51,907 nt of DNA from Candidatus Kerfeldbacteria bacterium (GTDB lineage Bacteria > Patescibacteriota > Patescibacteriia > SBBC01 > CAIJZX01): contig CAIJZX010000037.1 in assembly GCA_903825245.1 (NCBI GenBank), forward strand, positions 1 to 51,907. Direction: 5' to 3'. How positions within the stretch are numbered: the stretch's first letter is position 1; each line of letters begins with the position of its first letter. The translations under genes were made by a program, and so were the position numbers. The notes below the pieces were generated by a model. That model was given only the letters and a program-made list of their open reading frames with translations, was not told the origin of the DNA and did no database searches. Shown here one piece after another: positions 3,707 to 37,782 of this stretch.

Positions 3707-3793
3707 GCGGGTATCCCCGGCCTTAGCCGGGGCGAGCTCCTATCGGTATTATCTCGTCGTTCGACGGGATAGATGATCAGCTTTCTCCCGCTC
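3707..3793 (+). ncRNA. Degenerate tRNA-Gly-like 5' unit with hairpin insertion
   Basis: GCGGGTATC and ATCGGTATTA match tRNA-Gly, separated by CCCCGGccttaGCCGGGG; followed by hairpin TCTCGTC-GTTC-GACGGGA. Confidence 0.45.
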
Positions 3794-3848: not shown

Positions 3849-3919
3849 GCGGGTATCGTATATCGGTATTACCTCAGCTTTCCAAGCTGATGAGAGGAGT
3901 TCGACTCTCCTTACCCGCT
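3849..3919 (+). tRNA. tRNA-Gly(TCC)
   Basis: Acceptor GCGGGTA/TACCCGC, anticodon arm CAGC-TTTCCAA-GCTG, T arm AGGAG-TTCGACT-CTCCT; CCA not encoded. Confidence 0.9.
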
Positions 3920-3963
3920 CGCGGGACGGAATTTTCAGTAGATATCAAAATGTCGTGCGGGAC

Positions 3964-4090
3964 AAGCTGATGAGAGGGTTGAGTCGGCATCCGGAGGATA
4001 GCGACTGAACTGCTTCAGTCGCGGCCGTCGAAACGAGCAGCGCATGTTTCGAAGGAACAGCGATGCCTAGGACTCTCCTTACCCGCTCCA
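3964..4090 (+). ncRNA. tRNA-Gly 3'-half-like sequence interrupted by a structured insertion, ending in CCA
   Basis: AAGCTGATGAGAGG ... GACTCTCCTTACCCGCTCCA repeats the tRNA-Gly 3' half with about 92 nt inserted in the T arm. Confidence 0.6.
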
Positions 4091-4998: not shown

Positions 4999-6627
4999 TT
5001 ATTCGACCAGGGTCAGCGTGTGACCTTGAACACGATACGTGTGGTCACACAGTTGTCGGATTTGATCGTGGTGCGTAACGATCACAAATGTTTTTTGGTG
5101 GAGGCGAGCGCGAATGCAATCAATTGTTCGAGCGGCGGTGACGATATCCAGGTGAGAAATAGGCTCATCCAGTAAATAGAGATCACGGTCGAGCAGAATG
5201 GCTCGGGCTACATTCAATCGCTGTTTTTGGCCGGCCGATAATTTGACACCCTTTTCACCGACCACGGTATTGAGTCCTTCCGGTAAGGTCTGAACCCATG
5301 GCTCAAGGTCGAGATCGGCCAGCAACTGGTGGATGGTGGAGTCGCCCATGGTTTTTCCCAGTAACAGGTTTTCACGCAATGAGGCGTTGAAAATTTCTAC
5401 CTCTTGACTGACAAAAGCGATACGTTCTTGCCAGCTCACAACATCAAGATTGTCGAACGACTGGCCATCAATGGTTAGTGCACCGGATTGCGGTTCAAGG
5501 AACCCGGCCAGAATATTGAGCAATGTCGATTTACCCTCACCCGAGGTTCCGATGATGGCGAGATGCTCGCCACGTTGCAATAATAACCGAGGAATGGTGA
5601 TTGGCACATGATTGAGGTCGTAGCGAAAAACAACGTCCTGAAGCTCAACCCGGTGCCAGTCCGTTAACGGTATGCCATGTCGCTCAACCGCTTGGTTGAG
5701 GATATCGGTGAGATTATGCAGATAGGCTTGGTAGATCATCAGGCGGCGAATATTTTCGGTTGCTCGATCAATCGTGCCGCGAATAAACAAATAGGCGGAA
5801 ATGAAAATAATTAAGAGTGACACCGGTAGTTGTCCGCGTCCGACGCGTAAGGCAATCGTGCTCAGCGTGCTGATGAAGATCAGGCCGGACAGAAGATGAA
5901 GGAAGAACCAGCGCTTGGCGTGGAATGCTTGTAGTTGGTCGATATTGTCACTGACGGACACGATACGATCAGACATGACTGTTTCCGTGTATGATGCTAG
6001 TCCGAGTTTTCGGACGGTATGCATATTCGTCAAAAAATCGACGAAGCGTTCCATGTAGGCTGCTCGAGCGAGATTATATGTTTTTGCCTTGGGAATTTGG
6101 CCGCGCGACATCCAGGTACCAAAAACAAAGAACGCGATGAAGAGGATGACATTGAGAATTGCCAGTGTCAGTGAAGCCGCGGCGGTAAAGTAGAAGAAGA
6201 GTATGATTTGGGGCAAACTACTCACGGTTGACCAAAACGCATCCATCAAGATTGGCACCACGCCGTCAGACAGACGATTCATCAACGTCAATACTTGGCC
6301 GGAGTGGTGCTTGGTCAACTTATCAATCGGTACCCGTTCATATTCGCGGTAGAGACGGAGTAACGACTCAGTTTCGGTTTTCATGGCCGCTGCCTCACCA
6401 TACTTGCGAATGATCCATTGTAATCCCAGGCCGATAGCGTAAATAGCGATGACCAACCCGATCAGGAACGGATAGTGGTCGGGAGCGTTACTTGGTTTGG
6501 TGAATTCACTAAGCGTAATCGGAATCAAAAAAACACCGATACCATTGAGGAAGGCGATGATGAAGATAAACGTAAACGTACCGCGGTGCTCCCGCATCGT
6601 GCGCCCAATAAATCGTAGAATATCCAT
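4999..6627 (-). CDS. ABC transporter, fused permease/ATP-binding protein
   Basis: Walker A GTSGEGKST, signature LSAGQKQRL, Walker B LYLLDEP; N-terminal TM helices. Confidence 0.93.
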   Translation of the reverse strand: MDILRFIGRTMREHRGTFTFIFIIAFLNGIGVFLIPITLSEFTKPSNAPDHYPFLIGLVIAIYAIGLGLQWIIRKYGEAAAMKTETESLLRLYREYERVPIDKLTKHHSGQVLTLMNRLSDGVVPILMDAFWSTVSSLPQIILFFYFTAAASLTLAILNVILFIAFFVFGTWMSRGQIPKAKTYNLARAAYMERFVDFLTNMHTVRKLGLASYTETVMSDRIVSVSDNIDQLQAFHAKRWFFLHLLSGLIFISTLSTIALRVGRGQLPVSLLIIFISAYLFIRGTIDRATENIRRLMIYQAYLHNLTDILNQAVERHGIPLTDWHRVELQDVVFRYDLNHVPITIPRLLLQRGEHLAIIGTSGEGKSTLLNILAGFLEPQSGALTIDGQSFDNLDVVSWQERIAFVSQEVEIFNASLRENLLLGKTMGDSTIHQLLADLDLEPWVQTLPEGLNTVVGEKGVKLSAGQKQRLNVARAILLDRDLYLLDEPISHLDIVTAARTIDCIRARLHQKTFVIVTHHDQIRQLCDHTYRVQGHTLTLVE

Positions 6628-8444: not shown

Positions 8445-11018
8445 TTAATCGAAACCGTATTTTCGGACGAAAATATTTTTGACGAATTGCGTGAGGACGA
8501 GGTAGGCAATAGCCATGGCCGAGACAATGAGGAAGAACAACGGTGGGAGCGGTACGAATTTGAAGAAGGTGCCGATCGGGGTGTAGGGGAGAATACAGCC
8601 AAGCGCCACAATGCCGAATGTCGAGAGAAATAATGTTCGGCTCGGACGGCTTTCGAGGAAGGGAATTTTTTGGGTGCGGATGATGTAAATGACGAACGTT
8701 TGGGTGAGCAACGATTCGACAAACCAACCGGTGCGGAAGAGTGCCGGGGAAGCGTGAAAGACAAACCACATTACTCCAAAGGTCATAAAGTCAAAAATCG
8801 AACTGACCGGTCCGATCGCGAAAATAAAACGCTTGATGAAGGTAATATTCCACGGTCGCGGTTTTTGCAGGTAGTCTGCATCGACACTATCGGACGGAAT
8901 GGTGACCTGCGACAAGTCGTACAAGAAGTTATTTAACAGTATTTGCGTCGGCAACATCGGTAAGAACGGCAAGAAGATGCTGGCACCGGTCATGCTCAAC
9001 ATATTGCCGAAATTCGAACTGGCGCCCATCTTAATGTACTTCAACGAATTAGCAAATGTCTTCCGACCTTCCGTCACGACGTTGCTGAGCACTAACAAAC
9101 TTTTTTCCAGCAAAATAATATCAGCATTTTCCTTAGCAATGTCGACAGCGTTATCAACTGACAATCCGACGTCAGCGGCTTTGAGTGCCGGGGCGTCATT
9201 AATGCCGTCGCCCATGTAGCCGACGATGTGGCCGGCCCGTTGGAGCGCTTTAATGAGCCGCTCTTTTTGAATCGGCGTGACACGTGCAAAGATGGTGGTG
9301 GTTTCCACTGCTTTTTGCAAACCTTCATCAGTCATGTGGTCGATATCTTGTCCGGTCAACATTGATGCGGTTGATAAACCGACATCATGGCCGATTTTTT
9401 CATTGACGAGCTCGTTATCTCCGGACAGTACTTTCAAGGTGATACCGAGTTGTTCTAGTTGCTTGATCGCTTGAATCGCGCTTTCCTTCGGCGGATCGAG
9501 AAAAGCCACGAACCCAGCGAAGATCAAATCATGTTCATCCGACGTCGTGTATGCTTCTTGCTGATTGGCCACATCACGATAAGCGATTGCCAAGACGCGA
9601 AAGCCTTGCCGCGAAAACGTTTCTTCCAGCTGCACGATTTTTGTTTCTTCGGTACCGGTGAAGGAGCGAACCGAGCCGCGATCGACGAATTGCGTGCTTC
9701 GCTTAAACACTTCTTCCGGAGCGCCCTTGGTGATGAGGCGGTGCTGACCGCCAATATCAACGACGACGGATAACACTTTGCGCTGAAAATCGAAGGGAAT
9801 TTCGTCAACTTTTTTAATATCGGAAATATCAAGCTTGGTGGCATTCAGCACAGCTTTTTCTAGCACATTGTTCATGCCGGTTTGGAAGGCGCTCGTCAGG
9901 TACGCGTCCTTAAGAATTTGTTCATCTTCACGACCTTCAACGTCGCAGTGTTTAACGAGCGTCACTTGGTCGAGCGTCAATGTCCCAGTTTTATCGGTGC
10001 ACAAAACATCCATGGCGCCGAAATTTTGGATAGCATCAAGGCGTTTGATGATTACTTTTTTCTTGGACATGGCCAATGCGCCCTTCGATAAGTTGACCGT
10101 AACGATCATCGGCAACATTTCCGGAGCGAGGCCGACCGCTACGGCAACTGCAAACAAGAGCGCCTCTAAGGCATTGTGTTTAAAGACGGCATTGACGACG
10201 AAAATGAACACCGCGAGCACGGTAATTAATCGGATCATCAACAAGGTAAACGATTTGATACCACGGTCAAAACTGGTGGCGGTTTCACCGGATAACAAGT
10301 GTTGTGAGAGTTGTCCGAATTGTGTTTGTTTACCGGTGGCTACTACCAAACCGATAGCGGTACCACTGACCACGCTGCCGCCCATGCAAGCGATGTTTGG
10401 CAAATCGAAAACCGAGTCCTTCGCCTCGGCCTGGTGGTCGGGCCATTTTTCCGTCGGGAATGATTCGCCGTTCAGTGCCGACTGGGCAATGAAAAGATCT
10501 TTGCTACTGATAATGCGCACATCAGCTGGAATCATATCGCCAGCCGCTAGTTCAATAATATCGCCCGGCACGATGTCACGAAGCTGGAGATCGATCGGAC
10601 CGCTGTGACGGATAACACGGCAGGTAATTCGAACCATGGCTTGGAGTTTATCGGCGTTGTTTTGTGCGCGGTGTTCCTGAACGTACGACAAGACGACACT
10701 CAAGACCGCCATAGCGATGATAATGATGGCGCTAATTTTATCGCTAAAGAAATAGGAAACCGCAGCTAGTACGAACAGCAGGAGCACTAATGGACTGGCG
10801 AACCGTTTTGCGAGATCGCGCAGCATTCCGACACGTTCTTTACTGGCTACTTCGTTCGGACCATATTGGACCAATCGTTGCTGAACATCGTCGACGGTCA
10901 GTCCAGTGTGTGATGTTTTGAGTTGCAGTAAGGCCGCAGGAGCAGGCAGGTTGTTGATCGATCGCAGGAGATCATCATTCGTGTGATGGGTCTGGTGTGG
11001 TGTTGTAGGAGTGGGCAT
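8445..11018 (-). CDS. mgtA: Magnesium-translocating P-type ATPase
   Basis: DKTGTLT, GDGINDAPALKAADVGLSVD, overall MgtA-like N- and C-termini. Confidence 0.93.
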   Translation of the reverse strand: MPTPTTPHQTHHTNDDLLRSINNLPAPAALLQLKTSHTGLTVDDVQQRLVQYGPNEVASKERVGMLRDLAKRFASPLVLLLFVLAAVSYFFSDKISAIIIIAMAVLSVVLSYVQEHRAQNNADKLQAMVRITCRVIRHSGPIDLQLRDIVPGDIIELAAGDMIPADVRIISSKDLFIAQSALNGESFPTEKWPDHQAEAKDSVFDLPNIACMGGSVVSGTAIGLVVATGKQTQFGQLSQHLLSGETATSFDRGIKSFTLLMIRLITVLAVFIFVVNAVFKHNALEALLFAVAVAVGLAPEMLPMIVTVNLSKGALAMSKKKVIIKRLDAIQNFGAMDVLCTDKTGTLTLDQVTLVKHCDVEGREDEQILKDAYLTSAFQTGMNNVLEKAVLNATKLDISDIKKVDEIPFDFQRKVLSVVVDIGGQHRLITKGAPEEVFKRSTQFVDRGSVRSFTGTEETKIVQLEETFSRQGFRVLAIAYRDVANQQEAYTTSDEHDLIFAGFVAFLDPPKESAIQAIKQLEQLGITLKVLSGDNELVNEKIGHDVGLSTASMLTGQDIDHMTDEGLQKAVETTTIFARVTPIQKERLIKALQRAGHIVGYMGDGINDAPALKAADVGLSVDNAVDIAKENADIILLEKSLLVLSNVVTEGRKTFANSLKYIKMGASSNFGNMLSMTGASIFLPFLPMLPTQILLNNFLYDLSQVTIPSDSVDADYLQKPRPWNITFIKRFIFAIGPVSSIFDFMTFGVMWFVFHASPALFRTGWFVESLLTQTFVIYIIRTQKIPFLESRPSRTLFLSTFGIVALGCILPYTPIGTFFKFVPLPPLFFLIVSAMAIAYLVLTQFVKNIFVRKYGFD

Positions 11019-11062
11019 ATCGGCAAAGTAAGTCCTTTCGTTATATGTAGTATATCATGATC

Positions 11063-11090
11063 TTGACATTTGGTCGGTACATGATAGTGT
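11063..11090 (+). promoter_or_regulatory. Promoter TTGACA-16-TAGTGT with extended -10 TGATAG
   Basis: TTGACATTTGGTCGGTACATGATAGTGT. Confidence 0.5.
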
Positions 11091-11172
11091 GTCGCCAGAA
11101 GTACCTTTCATGACTGACGGCATGTTCACATTTGCCTAGTCGCTGAACGACAGTCATTGCCCCGAGGGTCGC

Positions 11173-11880: not shown

Positions 11881-11901
11881 TTTTTCGGTGGAATTCGGAA
11901 T

Positions 11902-12039
11902 CTCCCGCTCCCAAAGCAGGCGCGCTTCCGGGGCGCCGCCTGTTCCTTCGAAACATGGCGTCGTCCGTCTCGATCGTCGGAAGCAAAGCAGTTTGCTTCC
12001 TGACCGTTACACGGTCACGATCTCGACCCAACTGCGCCA
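11902..12039 (-). ncRNA. Split tRNA-Pro-like copy carrying a structured insertion in the D loop
   Basis: ccaactgcgcca (12028-12039) and gctcccaaagcaggcgcgct (11907-11926) are exact repeats of tRNA-Pro segments, separated by 101 nt. Confidence 0.6.
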
Positions 12040-12057
12040 TTCATAAAATATCCACTG

Positions 12058-12130
12058 TCGGGGCGCCGAGACTCGAACTCGGGGCCTCCTGCTCCCAAAG
12101 CAGGCGCGCTACCAACTGCGCCACGCCCCG
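12058..12130 (-). tRNA. tRNA-Pro(TGG)
   Basis: Acceptor CGGGGCG/CGCCCCG, anticodon arm CCTGC-TTTGGGA-GCAGG; CCA not encoded. Confidence 0.9.
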
Positions 12131-12213
12131 ACAGTGGATACATGATTTGTCATTGTACTTGGTGCACCCGGAAAAAATATGGTAAGTACGGACGAAGCGT
12201 TTTCCTTAGCAGT

Positions 12214-12289
12214 TGGTGCGCCCGGAGGGAGTCGAACCCCCAACCTTCTGGTCCGAAGCCAGACACTCTATCCATTGAGCTACGGGCGC
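12214..12289 (-). tRNA. tRNA-Arg(TCG)
   Basis: GCGCCCGTAGCTCAATGGATAGAGTGTCTGGCTTCGGACCAGAAGGTTGGGGGTTCGACTCCCTCCGGGCGCACCA. Confidence 0.92.
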
Positions 12290-12318: not shown

Positions 12319-12408
12319 AGTCCCGGGCGTCGCTGTACCTATGATACATCGCGCCGCCCGTCTCGTCCCGCGAAAACTGAAGCAGTTCAGTTTTCTTGTA
12401 GACTCAAC
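12319..12408 (-). ncRNA. Structured RNA element upstream of tRNA-Arg (same family as 3978-4075 and 11927-12032)
   Basis: GTTGAGTC ... AAAACTGAA-CTGC-TTCAGTTTT ... TGTA-TCATAGG-TACA ... GGGACT. Confidence 0.55.
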
Positions 12409-12490
12409 TCTTCCGGTTCGTAGTCAGACAAATTTTCATTGGGCGGAGTTTATCCCGTCATCTGACGAGAGGCGCATGTGACGCGGAGCT

Positions 12491-16243: not shown

Positions 16244-16353
16244 TGGGGTGGCTATCCCCGTATCCCAACTGCGTCGGGTACGGGGCAGGCGGGATACGTC
16301 GTCGATTTGTATTATGCCCGCGCGGGTGGGTGTCACCCCAGACAAAAATTGTC
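16244..16353 (-). ncRNA. tRNA-His 3'-end-like copy with structured spacer
   Basis: tggggtggctatc at 16244-16256 repeats the tRNA-His 3' end (16354-16366); CCCCGTA/TACGGGG and GCGGG/CCCGC hairpins between. Confidence 0.45.
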
Positions 16354-16428
16354 TGGGGTGGCTATCGGGGTTCGAACCCGAGATAAAGGCTCCACAGGCC
16401 TCTGTGTTACCACTACACCATAGCCACC
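16354..16428 (-). tRNA. tRNA-His(GTG)
   Basis: GGTGGCTATGGTGTAGTGGTAACACAGAGGCCTGTGGAGCCTTTATCTCGGGTTCGAACCCCGATAGCCACCCCA. Confidence 0.92.
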
Positions 16429-16475
16429 CGTGCGGACACGATTATGAGATTTGAAAAGGTTTAGGCCAGCGCCTG

Positions 16476-16531
16476 CCCCGTAAAACGCTCGGCGTTTTTC
16501 GGGGTGTTACCACTATCGCCTATGCCACCAT
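16476..16531 (-). ncRNA. tRNA-His 5'-half-like copy followed by hairpin
   Basis: gtgttaccacta (16504-16515) exactly repeats tRNA-His 16404-16415; followed by CCCCG..AAACGC..GCGTTT..CGGGG. Confidence 0.45.
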
Positions 16532-16833: not shown

Positions 16834-16873
16834 TAAGCCCGTGATGATGGTTCAACTCCATCCGGGGGCACCA
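16834..16873 (+). ncRNA. Orphan tRNA 3' half (T arm, acceptor 3' strand, ACCA)
   Basis: GATGG-TTCAACT-CCATC then CGGGGGC-ACCA; no adjacent 5' half. Confidence 0.5.
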
Positions 16874-35143: not shown

Positions 35144-36643
35144 TTACCGCTGAAATACGGTCAGAGAATCTTTTTCCATCACCAAATGCCAGGCGGGATC
35201 ACGTTTGATGGTTTGCTGAAAAACTTTCACCTGATCGGAAGTCATCGGCCAACTCGGGGCTCGCGGATCGAGGATGAGCCATTGAGCATTAGCTAGCGTC
35301 GGTGCTTGATAGATTCCTTGGCGATGGGCGAGATGTGGTACAAAAGCATCTTGCGCCGACACGGGCACCTTAGCTGGAATCTTGGCCAGCGCCGCATCCC
35401 AATCCTGTATTGGTCGGCTGAGAATTGTTGGATCAGAATATATCTTCCACGGCTGCAGTTTGCTGTATGTCCAGCCGGTGCCGGCAATGAGCATCAGCGC
35501 AAAAACCGCACTGACGCCGCGGAACCATTTCCAACGTTCTGCGTCGTGAGCAACATAGAGCACGCTGATGCCAAAAACCGCAACCATATTGAGTTGATAG
35601 TGGAACTGAAACAGCCAAATACCATACGAGCTTGTCCAGAAGCGCTCACCAAGGGCAAGTACGAGCAATGGCCATGTTGACCACGAGAGCAGCGGTAAAA
35701 AACCGCTGGTGGCTAACATCTCTTTCATGGTCAGTCGTTTATCCAGGTGATCAAAAAAGAATCCAAAGGTTCGAATCGGATGAACAATAATATTTTTTAC
35801 TAACAACATCGGCGTAGCGCCAACGGCGCTGTATTGATGCCAGTACGTATAGCCCTGTCCGTTAGAGATACTCGGAATAACAAGTCTGGTGATGAGGAAA
35901 AACGCGGAAATCCCAATCACCATCGTAGCCAGGGCATGCCAGATTGACCGGTCATGCCAGCCGGCACGACAGCGTCGAAGTACGAACATGAAGCCAAGTA
36001 GAGCAACGTAGAGTGTTAAGGATTCTTTGGTGAGTACAAGACCGCCAATAGCTGCCCAGTACCACCGCCAATGCCGAGACTCAAATGCCCAGACAGCAGA
36101 AAAAAATAGCACTGGTGCAAATGCGACTTCGTGAAAATCAAAATTCGTAGCCATGAGCATGCCAGGATTGGCGGCGATGGCAAAGGCGATAATGGCGGCC
36201 GGGATTGCAGGGAGTCGCAAGCGGTGGGCAACGGCGAAGACGATGGGGCCGACTAGTGCAAGAAGTGCTGCTTGGCCAATAAGTAAAACGACTGGTGAAT
36301 TGAATAGCCAATAGAGAGGAATGAAAAGAGAAATGATCGGGTGAAAATGATCCCCAAAAAGATTGGCAACACCTCGAATTGTGCTGGCTGGTGCTTGTAG
36401 TCGGCTGAGGTGCCAAATCGCTTGATCAAATATTGCCAGGTCAAAGGCGTGTGTTTCAAAAAACATGTGGCGCCACACGGCATTAACGGCGTACAGTGTT
36501 GCTACTACCGATGATGATATCCAAACATATGGCCATACTCGTTGGTATGATACCGTCCATCGTCGTGTGGCCCACCAACTCACGCCTCCAAGAACGGCCA
36601 CGAAGCCGAGTGTTGCCCAAGTTGTGACTGCAAATCCAAACAT
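35144..36643 (-). CDS. DUF2079-type multi-pass membrane protein
   Basis: HAFDLAIFDQAIWHLSR; many TM helices. Confidence 0.75.
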   Translation of the reverse strand: MFGFAVTTWATLGFVAVLGGVSWWATRRWTVSYQRVWPYVWISSSVVATLYAVNAVWRHMFFETHAFDLAIFDQAIWHLSRLQAPASTIRGVANLFGDHFHPIISLFIPLYWLFNSPVVLLIGQAALLALVGPIVFAVAHRLRLPAIPAAIIAFAIAANPGMLMATNFDFHEVAFAPVLFFSAVWAFESRHWRWYWAAIGGLVLTKESLTLYVALLGFMFVLRRCRAGWHDRSIWHALATMVIGISAFFLITRLVIPSISNGQGYTYWHQYSAVGATPMLLVKNIIVHPIRTFGFFFDHLDKRLTMKEMLATSGFLPLLSWSTWPLLVLALGERFWTSSYGIWLFQFHYQLNMVAVFGISVLYVAHDAERWKWFRGVSAVFALMLIAGTGWTYSKLQPWKIYSDPTILSRPIQDWDAALAKIPAKVPVSAQDAFVPHLAHRQGIYQAPTLANAQWLILDPRAPSWPMTSDQVKVFQQTIKRDPAWHLVMEKDSLTVFQR

Positions 36644-37590
36644 TAGCTCTTCCGTTTCTTGCCGTGATGCTGGCTGTAGATTTCTCGCAGTCGTGGATTG
36701 GTGATGTGGGTGTATATTTGCGTGGTTTGAATCGAGGCGTGGCCAAGCATCGCCTGGACGCTGCGAATATCGGCGCCGTTCATGAGCAAGTCGGTAGCGT
36801 AGGAATGTCGCAAAGTGTGTGGCGTGATGCGCTTCGTAATACCGGCGGCACGAGCGTAGTGGTCGACAAGACGCTGGATGGAGCGCGGCGTCAGATAGCC
36901 GACATCATTTCGTTTCATGCCGGCGCGATCTTGGCGCAGGAATAAATACGGTTCGGTATCGTGACGGCGATCGAGATATTCTTTAACCCACAATTTCGCC
37001 GCTGGCGACATGAAGACGATGCGGAGCTTATCGCCTTTACCGCGAACCGTAAATTCATCTTTGTGCAAGTTAATGTTGTCTTTTTTCAAACTGGCCAATT
37101 CGGAAACGCGAAGACCGGTCGAAAAGAGTAATTCGAGTATCGCTTTATCGCGGTAGGCGAGGAGATCACGATGCTCGCCGGCGAGGGGAGCACTCAAGAA
37201 TCGCTCTAAATCATCGCCTTCGAGAAAACTTACTTGGCGTTCGCTGGTTTTAGAAAGTTCGATTTTTTCAGCGGCCATGGTTTGCACATCATTGCGCGCT
37301 AAATACTTCAAGAACGACCGCAGGGCTATGAGGTGATAATTCTGCGTCGATTTCTTCAGCGTCTGACCACGTTGATTTGTTTGGCGATTGAGCCACAACC
37401 GAAAGTCACGCACATCATCGAGAGTAATTTGGCTTGGCTTCGTTAATTTTGAAATTTCAAAAAAACGAGTCAGATAAAAATCGTAATTCCGTCGTGTTAG
37501 CAGGCTTTTATTTTTCTCAACCTCAATATAGGTCAAGAAACGATTCTTCCACATCCCAAGTTCGGTTTGTTGTTTGTCGCCGTTAGCCAT
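36643..37590 (-). CDS. Tyrosine recombinase (XerC/XerD family)
   Basis: STGLRVSELASLKKDNI, HTLRHSYATDLLMNGADIRSVQAMLGHASIQTTQIYTH; ATG at 37590. Confidence 0.92.
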   Translation of the reverse strand: MANGDKQQTELGMWKNRFLTYIEVEKNKSLLTRRNYDFYLTRFFEISKLTKPSQITLDDVRDFRLWLNRQTNQRGQTLKKSTQNYHLIALRSFLKYLARNDVQTMAAEKIELSKTSERQVSFLEGDDLERFLSAPLAGEHRDLLAYRDKAILELLFSTGLRVSELASLKKDNINLHKDEFTVRGKGDKLRIVFMSPAAKLWVKEYLDRRHDTEPYLFLRQDRAGMKRNDVGYLTPRSIQRLVDHYARAAGITKRITPHTLRHSYATDLLMNGADIRSVQAMLGHASIQTTQIYTHITNPRLREIYSQHHGKKRKS

Positions 37591-37782
37591 GAAAGTATTG
37601 TACGACACATGTACATAATTGCAAGTAGCGTTGTGGATTGACGAGAAGCGGATTTTTACGTATACTTTGACTTCTACGTTTTCGTACCTTTGAAAGCGGG
37701 GTTCAACATCGTCGCTGAGCCCTAGGCGCATACACCATTCTCACGGGAGCGACCGCATTGTTCCCGAGTTAGGAGGAAAGGG

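Follow-up and report, generated by a model that had tools for sequence, protein, structure and literature searches.

The window analysed here, which is the whole stretch of 51,907 nucleotides of DNA from a relative of Kerfeldbacteria, contains an intact tRNA-Pro gene that is followed downstream, on the minus strand, by a second copy split into two pieces, and this arrangement raises the question of what occupies the gap and how it entered a tRNA. The first-pass annotation had described a partial tRNA-Pro copy in which 12 nt and 20 nt of exact identity are spaced by exactly 101 nt, and both exact matches could be located: TGGCGCAGTTGG lies at 12123-12112 in the gene and at 12039-12028 in the copy, and AGCGCGCCTGCTTTGGGAGC at 12110-12091 and 11926-11907, respectively (all on the minus strand). 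None of 2000 shuffled copies shared a 12-mer with the gene. The insert, suspected to be a conserved structured element, is indeed one (hereafter element E); it is 75% identical to the element found at 3977-4074 beside tRNA-Gly, both match the same covariance models, and at either end it shares 1-2 nt with the adjoining tRNA piece. The further claim that the T arm and the acceptor had been replaced holds in part, since the acceptor is absent, whereas decay, and not replacement, has affected the variable region and the 5' part (one half) of the T arm, with weak tRNA-like similarity persisting in the alignment to about 11891. The Pro insert lies in the D loop and that of the Gly copy in the T loop, and there is thus, as had been proposed, no single canonical intron position. 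On the best reading, which has a probability of roughly 0.6, an older tRNA-Pro gene took up a mobile noncoding element of about 100 nt in its D loop and survives here as a remnant.

Table 1. Positions of tRNA genes, remnants of older tRNA copies and copies of element E in the window (R1 and R2, covariance models).
Feature	Position	Strand	Basis
Intact tRNA-Pro(TGG), without encoded CCA	12057..12130	-	ARAGORN and Rfam tRNA, 69.9 bits
Dead tRNA-Pro copy, left piece (D arm 5' half, TGGCGCAGTTGG)	12028..12039	-	exact 12-mer
Element E filling D loop of tRNA-Pro copy	11925..12028	-	R1 102 bits; R2 82 bits, E-value 4e-15
tRNA-Pro copy, right piece (D stem 3' strand and anticodon arm)	11907..11926	-	exact 20-mer
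tRNA-Pro copy, decayed variable region and T arm 5' half	11891..11906	-	alignment to tRNA positions 29-56
Intact tRNA-Gly(TCC), without encoded CCA	3849..3920	+	
Older tRNA-Gly copy, 5' half (3707-3715, 3740-3755, 3778-3785)	3707..3785	+	two hairpins interrupt pieces
Older tRNA-Gly copy, anticodon arm 3' half and T arm start	3963..3977	+	exact 15-mer
Element E in T loop of older tRNA-Gly copy	3977..4074	+	R1 95 bits; R2 82 bits
Older tRNA-Gly copy, T stem to acceptor, with CCA	4071..4090	+	exact 18-mer, then CA
Intact tRNA-Arg(TCG)	12214..12289	-	
Older tRNA-Arg copy, decayed anticodon arm	12410..12430	-	>99th percentile of control
Element E in variable loop of older, decayed tRNA-Arg copy	12319..12409	-	R1 87 bits; R2 79 bits
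Older tRNA-Arg copy, 3' end with CCA (TCCGGGTGCACCA)	12160..12172	-	alone, below control threshold
Older tRNA-His copy, 5' piece, without E	16504..16515	-	exact 12-mer TAGTGGTAACAC, >99th percentile of control
Older tRNA-His copy, 3' end	16244..16256	-	exact 13-mer GATAGCCACCCCA
Older tRNA-Arg(TCT) copy, 3' half with CCA	16834..16873	+	>95th percentile of control

Beyond the Pro and Gly copies, the window holds a third copy of E, at tRNA-Arg(TCG) (Table 1). In the 5' half of the older tRNA-Gly copy, a local match to tRNA positions 13-27 exceeds the 99th percentile of the control, and the other pieces were recognised by eye. A hammerhead-like motif noticed at the Gly copy (CTGATGAG..GAAAC) was dropped, as CTGATGAG is part of tRNA-Gly itself. 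The flanks of tRNA-His and tRNA-Arg(TCT) carry fragments of their own older copies without E, and one tRNA-His fragment (16244-16515 region) is followed by a hairpin, CCCGAAAAACGCC..GTTTTACGGGG. It may be remarked that CCA in the remnants of genes that do not encode it would suggest retrocopying of a mature tRNA; an older gene encoding CCA explains it equally well.

Fold, conservation and distribution of element E

E is a three-way domain of about 100 nt. One of its hairpins carries the conserved loop AACUGCUU, and another is bulged (GAUGUUUCGAAGGAACAGCGA). The core runs from GG-GUCGAG through hairpin A, which is optional, and hairpin B, whose loop is AACUGCUU, to CGAGAC, the bulged hairpin and CCCNGGA. 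Covariation is visible already among four copies of this genome. In the model of 67 copies, which was built from the matches of its own first version, 93% of the cells of 30 pairs are paired and 28 pairs have changed on both sides; the covariation score is 0.61 compared to 0.17 in shuffles (0 of 500 reach it) and collapses once the model is slid by one column. At the gathering threshold only tRNA was found in Rfam, and lower thresholds gave nothing convincing for E.

Two sites shared between related genomes, one at tRNA-Gly(GCC) in this genome (G000) and G001 and one at 5S in G000 and G003, allow the stems to be compared in place. There, 5 of the 9 pairs of hairpin B differ, all of them on both sides, and none is broken. 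The first-pass annotation had named random substitutions in relatives as the mark of a decaying duplication; the tRNA part of the copy is decaying, but at these two sites E has kept its pairing. Because the stem changes are compensatory and none is broken, E is not simply decaying, and the changes could mean that it has a function in place. At these sites, E has either been constrained in place or been replaced at the same site.

Nine copies of E are found in this genome with covariance model R1, and its nearest relatives are G001 and G002. Matches occur in 70 of 384 genomes of the class and in 21 of 384 of the phylum, which, like the copy numbers, are lower bounds owing to strict filters and were obtained from assemblies, many of them fragmented. 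When 85,488 species were scanned with a DNA pattern of the element, eight matches could be verified, all in records of Patescibacteria or their subgroups (including Ca. Kerfeldbacteria) with the exception of one titled only "bacterium"; four further pattern matches in records from outside Patescibacteria were discarded as chance, since the covariance model finds no element there. The pattern had no match in viral contigs, and in the literature searched, outside subscription journals, no description of E was found.

Insertion sites and likeness to tRNA islands

Among the E copies that have a same-strand tRNA within 700 nt, 51 of 70 are flanked by pieces of that very tRNA, compared to 13.6 in cross-tRNA controls, which were used because tRNA conservation inflates any flank match. 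At tRNA loci, E lies inside a second copy of the neighbouring tRNA and the intact gene adjoins in most cases; E is mostly oriented along the strand of the tRNA and is positioned upstream or downstream of it. The left junctions (n=42) fall into the D loop (17), the T loop (7), the anticodon loop (6) and the variable loop (3). Leaving aside T-loop-form copies, for which the start of the model falls inside the intact tRNA, 29 of 35 junctions lie in loops (p about 3e-8 against a loop share of 37%). D-loop junctions are nearly uniform (..GTTG/GGTCGAG..CCCCGGAAG/AGC, slashes marking the junctions), GTTGGTAGAGC becoming GTTGG-GTCGAG...CCCCGGA-AGAGC upon filling.

Many copies of E have no adjoining tRNA. 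E also resides in a hairpin from the 3' end of 5S rRNA (5S identity by eye) and three times at the 5' piece of a gene that resembles msrA at its start (by eye). Three successive copies lie in G002 (L046, 747-1170), each after a diverged 5' end of an msrA-like gene (..TFGGGCFW), and the intact start follows downstream. At another locus of G002 (L045, 627-800), E interrupts the T arm of tRNA-Thr(CGT), the stretch examined being without an intact copy.

In other classes of the phylum, the element overlaps the intact tRNA, whose own T loop and T stem serve as the 5' strand of stem P1; at the loci read, the 3' strand of P1 and the T arm of that tRNA are complementary. Downstream, the 3' end of the tRNA from C56 onward recurs as a direct repeat, sometimes with its terminator; C56 of the T loop is the start of the repeat in 11 of the 18 cases listed. 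By analogy, this phylum-wide form resembles the topology of a tRNA island at a scale of about 200 bp and without genes. For the tRNA-gene islands collected in Islander, which are mobilised by tyrosine integrases, crossovers have been described in the anticodon loop, the T loop and the T/acceptor junction, and not in the D or variable loops (PMC4383910). E loci share with such islands the split target gene, with a displaced 5' or 3' fragment on one side and the intact gene on the opposite side, and some of the E junctions lie in the T and anticodon loops. In contrast to islands, the E units read are about 100-250 bp long, contain no open reading frame and cannot hold an integrase gene; in addition, E uses the D loop, its commonest site, the variable loop and hairpins outside tRNAs, and a folded conserved element sits at the junction. 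An island from this genome served as a yardstick; as at the E loci, a tRNA fragment, the insert and the intact gene follow one another there. It is an ordinary 5.5-kb island in tRNA-Gly(GCC) (contig C41, L199, 5702-11315) with a tyrosine recombinase at 10385-11143 (minus strand), and an E insertion in the same tRNA directly adjoins it.

Probable mobility of element E and rival explanations

In one pair of genomes (G286/G362), on which the comparison of empty and filled sites rests, recently amplified copies of E, 93-99% identical, are lodged in two unrelated palindromic (hairpin) repeats. One of these repeats is also present in many copies that lack E, with the arms joined directly by their own small loop. 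A palindromic repeat of these genomes (e.g. L168, L170, L151) reads GAGCGGTYGYACCATGTC..GACATGGTACGACCGCTC, and its outer stem varies with the pairing kept. Together with the positions in tRNA loops and in the 5S-derived hairpin, the filled and empty repeats are strong evidence that E is mobile and prefers hairpin loops after GG; it has the appearance of a tiny mobile element directed at such loops. It would insert after GG in the apical loops of DNA able to form a hairpin, the targets being the D, anticodon, variable and T loops of tRNA genes and the loops of palindromic repeats. The tRNA insertions seen would be those that leave a working copy, either by an incoming unit supplying the missing end of the gene, in an island-like topology, or by an intact copy already adjoining. 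Insertion alone would not fully account for an intact tRNA lying nearly always beside the split copy.

The enzyme responsible would recognise a folded single strand, and the recombinase may act in trans, being encoded by the host or by another element; no mobilising gene was linked to E. The Y1 transposase that a REP/RAYT system would have in its genome (PF01797) is absent from G000, G001, G180, G195 and G162, and the host reverse transcriptase of a retroelement (RVT_1) from G000, G001, G003, G033, G127 and G180. Besides G000, several of the genomes that lack them are rich in E. Neither correlates with E, and both were rejected as mobilisers. Phage_integrase is present in every genome tested and is therefore non-discriminating; the window itself contains a tyrosine recombinase gene (36643-37731).

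Some small palindromic repeat families have been recorded inside other palindromes (PMC3733652). E is like REP, RPE and MITE sequences in being small, noncoding, multicopy and folding and, on the above evidence, mobile as MITEs are, but differs from them in that no GTAG or CGTC tag was seen, that this genome lacks a Y1 transposase, that tRNA loops are strongly targeted and that a multi-hairpin structure is conserved over a phylum. Neither terminal inverted repeats nor target-site duplications were seen for E in filled D loops or in the filled hairpin repeat compared to its empty copies, unlike the related T-loop form, which repeats the tRNA 3' end. The insertion sequences IS1397, ISKpn1 and IS110/IS621 (in REP) insert into the loops of palindromes, as E would, whereas E encodes no protein. 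In the attC sites of integrons, structure is conserved more than sequence and the folded single strand recombines. E shares the first property, which recombination of a folded single strand would explain; its ends, judged by eye, lack the box order of attC.

Several other explanations have to be weighed against a mobile element. The compensatory changes at the two shared sites, the strand mostly held in common with the tRNA and, in the phylum-wide loci read, the complementarity of P1 to the T arm of the intact tRNA would also be expected if E were a functional noncoding RNA linked to tRNAs, co-transcribed with them and selected in place, with the tRNA-like pieces belonging to its fold. This is rather unlikely in view of the almost identical copies that two unrelated, tRNA-free hairpin repeats carry, of the use of four different tRNA loops both upstream and downstream of the tRNA, and of matches in just 70 of 384 class genomes, even as a lower bound; the narrower idea of an RNA in the tRNA trailer only was dropped given the empty and filled hairpins in G286/G362. 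The topology shared with the island on contig C41 and the T-loop crossover described for tRNA islands (PMC4383910) would suit micro-insertions that are deletion remnants of tyrosine-recombinase islands, with E as an arm of the attachment site. Such an origin is improbable, since E also occupies hairpins outside tRNAs, no full-length relative combining E with an integrase was found, and the D and variable loops are missing from the crossover sites of islands (PMC4383910). Replication slippage or template switching that duplicated part of a tRNA and copied in an unrelated hairpin, the rest being decay, fits the short GG homology at the left junction, the partial nature of the copies and the many other hairpins in the remnants. 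It is of similarly low probability, as the junctions are uniform across unrelated genomes, the duplicated parts end at the tRNA ends and do not run into the flanks (L048, L012), and one pair of Asn copies differs by compensatory changes in the anticodon stem (L051). Simple tandem duplication was rejected at L048 and L012, where similarity ends at the tRNA 5' end.

Two readings that take the split tRNA to be part of a mature product fare worse. At some loci (L021, L051), nearly complete exons flank E in the right order, as in a second tRNA from which E is spliced out as an intron; this is highly unlikely, since in the Pro remnant the acceptor and a large part of the T arm are gone, its exons do not make up a complete tRNA, and the intact gene adjoins in most tRNA cases. 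The spread of positions over four loops and the absence of intron family matches in Rfam also speak against splicing. Here tRNA-like arms adjoin a structured stem, and the first-pass annotation had proposed looking for Ro proteins, since bacterial Y RNAs such as YrlA also have a tRNA-like module. Such a link is not supported by a search for the TROVE (Ro/Rsr) protein, which was found in 0 of 14 element-bearing genomes and was detected in the control genome, and there was no Rfam match, which leaves a Y RNA with next to no probability. If a mobile element is the correct reading, E would be among the smallest tRNA-targeting mobile units and would explain why tRNA fragments are so numerous around Patescibacteria tRNA genes, and the finding points to an activity that inserts DNA into hairpin loops.

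tRNA genes nested in older copies

Each of the five tRNA genes in the window is flanked, on one side or on both, by fragments of an older self, and for each of them at least one side lies above the 95th percentile of the control. In the stretches of this genome that were sampled, partly biased toward E loci, the same holds at this percentile for 14 of 21 tRNAs, five of them on both sides, and in G155, which is without matches to model R2, older-copy fragments at this level were found at 4 of 15 tRNAs, none on both sides. Complete tRNAs with terminal inverted repeats were seen inside split older copies (L206, L208, L203, L065); in this genome, tRNA-Pro(CGG) is placed in this manner, and 46 nt of the 3' half of the older copy are identical (L216). 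Older tRNA copies also hold other hairpins in their remaining loops (L100). Extended inverted repeats of the acceptor stem, considered as the mark of a cassette, are only weakly enriched and were set aside.

These arrangements tentatively suggest that hairpin cassettes of Patescibacteria insert into the loops of other hairpins and that some of them carry a whole tRNA, or its 3' end, into a resident copy. It is possible, as part of the same doubtful reading, that tRNA genes would thus be repeatedly replaced from inside and end up embedded in the dead remains of earlier copies, E being one module. If tRNA genes do travel as cargo, tRNA turnover in reduced genomes would become directly testable by comparing strains.

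Two further observations may be added. The inverted repeats GCCCCGCACCA..TGGTGCGGGG surround a complete tRNA-Arg or tRNA-Ser inside split tRNAs in three genomes (L206, L203, L065). Downstream of tRNA-Ser(TGA) in G155 (L236, tRNA at 5331-5418) lie tandem units of about 105 nt, each containing the 3' end of the tRNA together with a related hairpin (loop AAGTCTT), in a genome without R2 matches.
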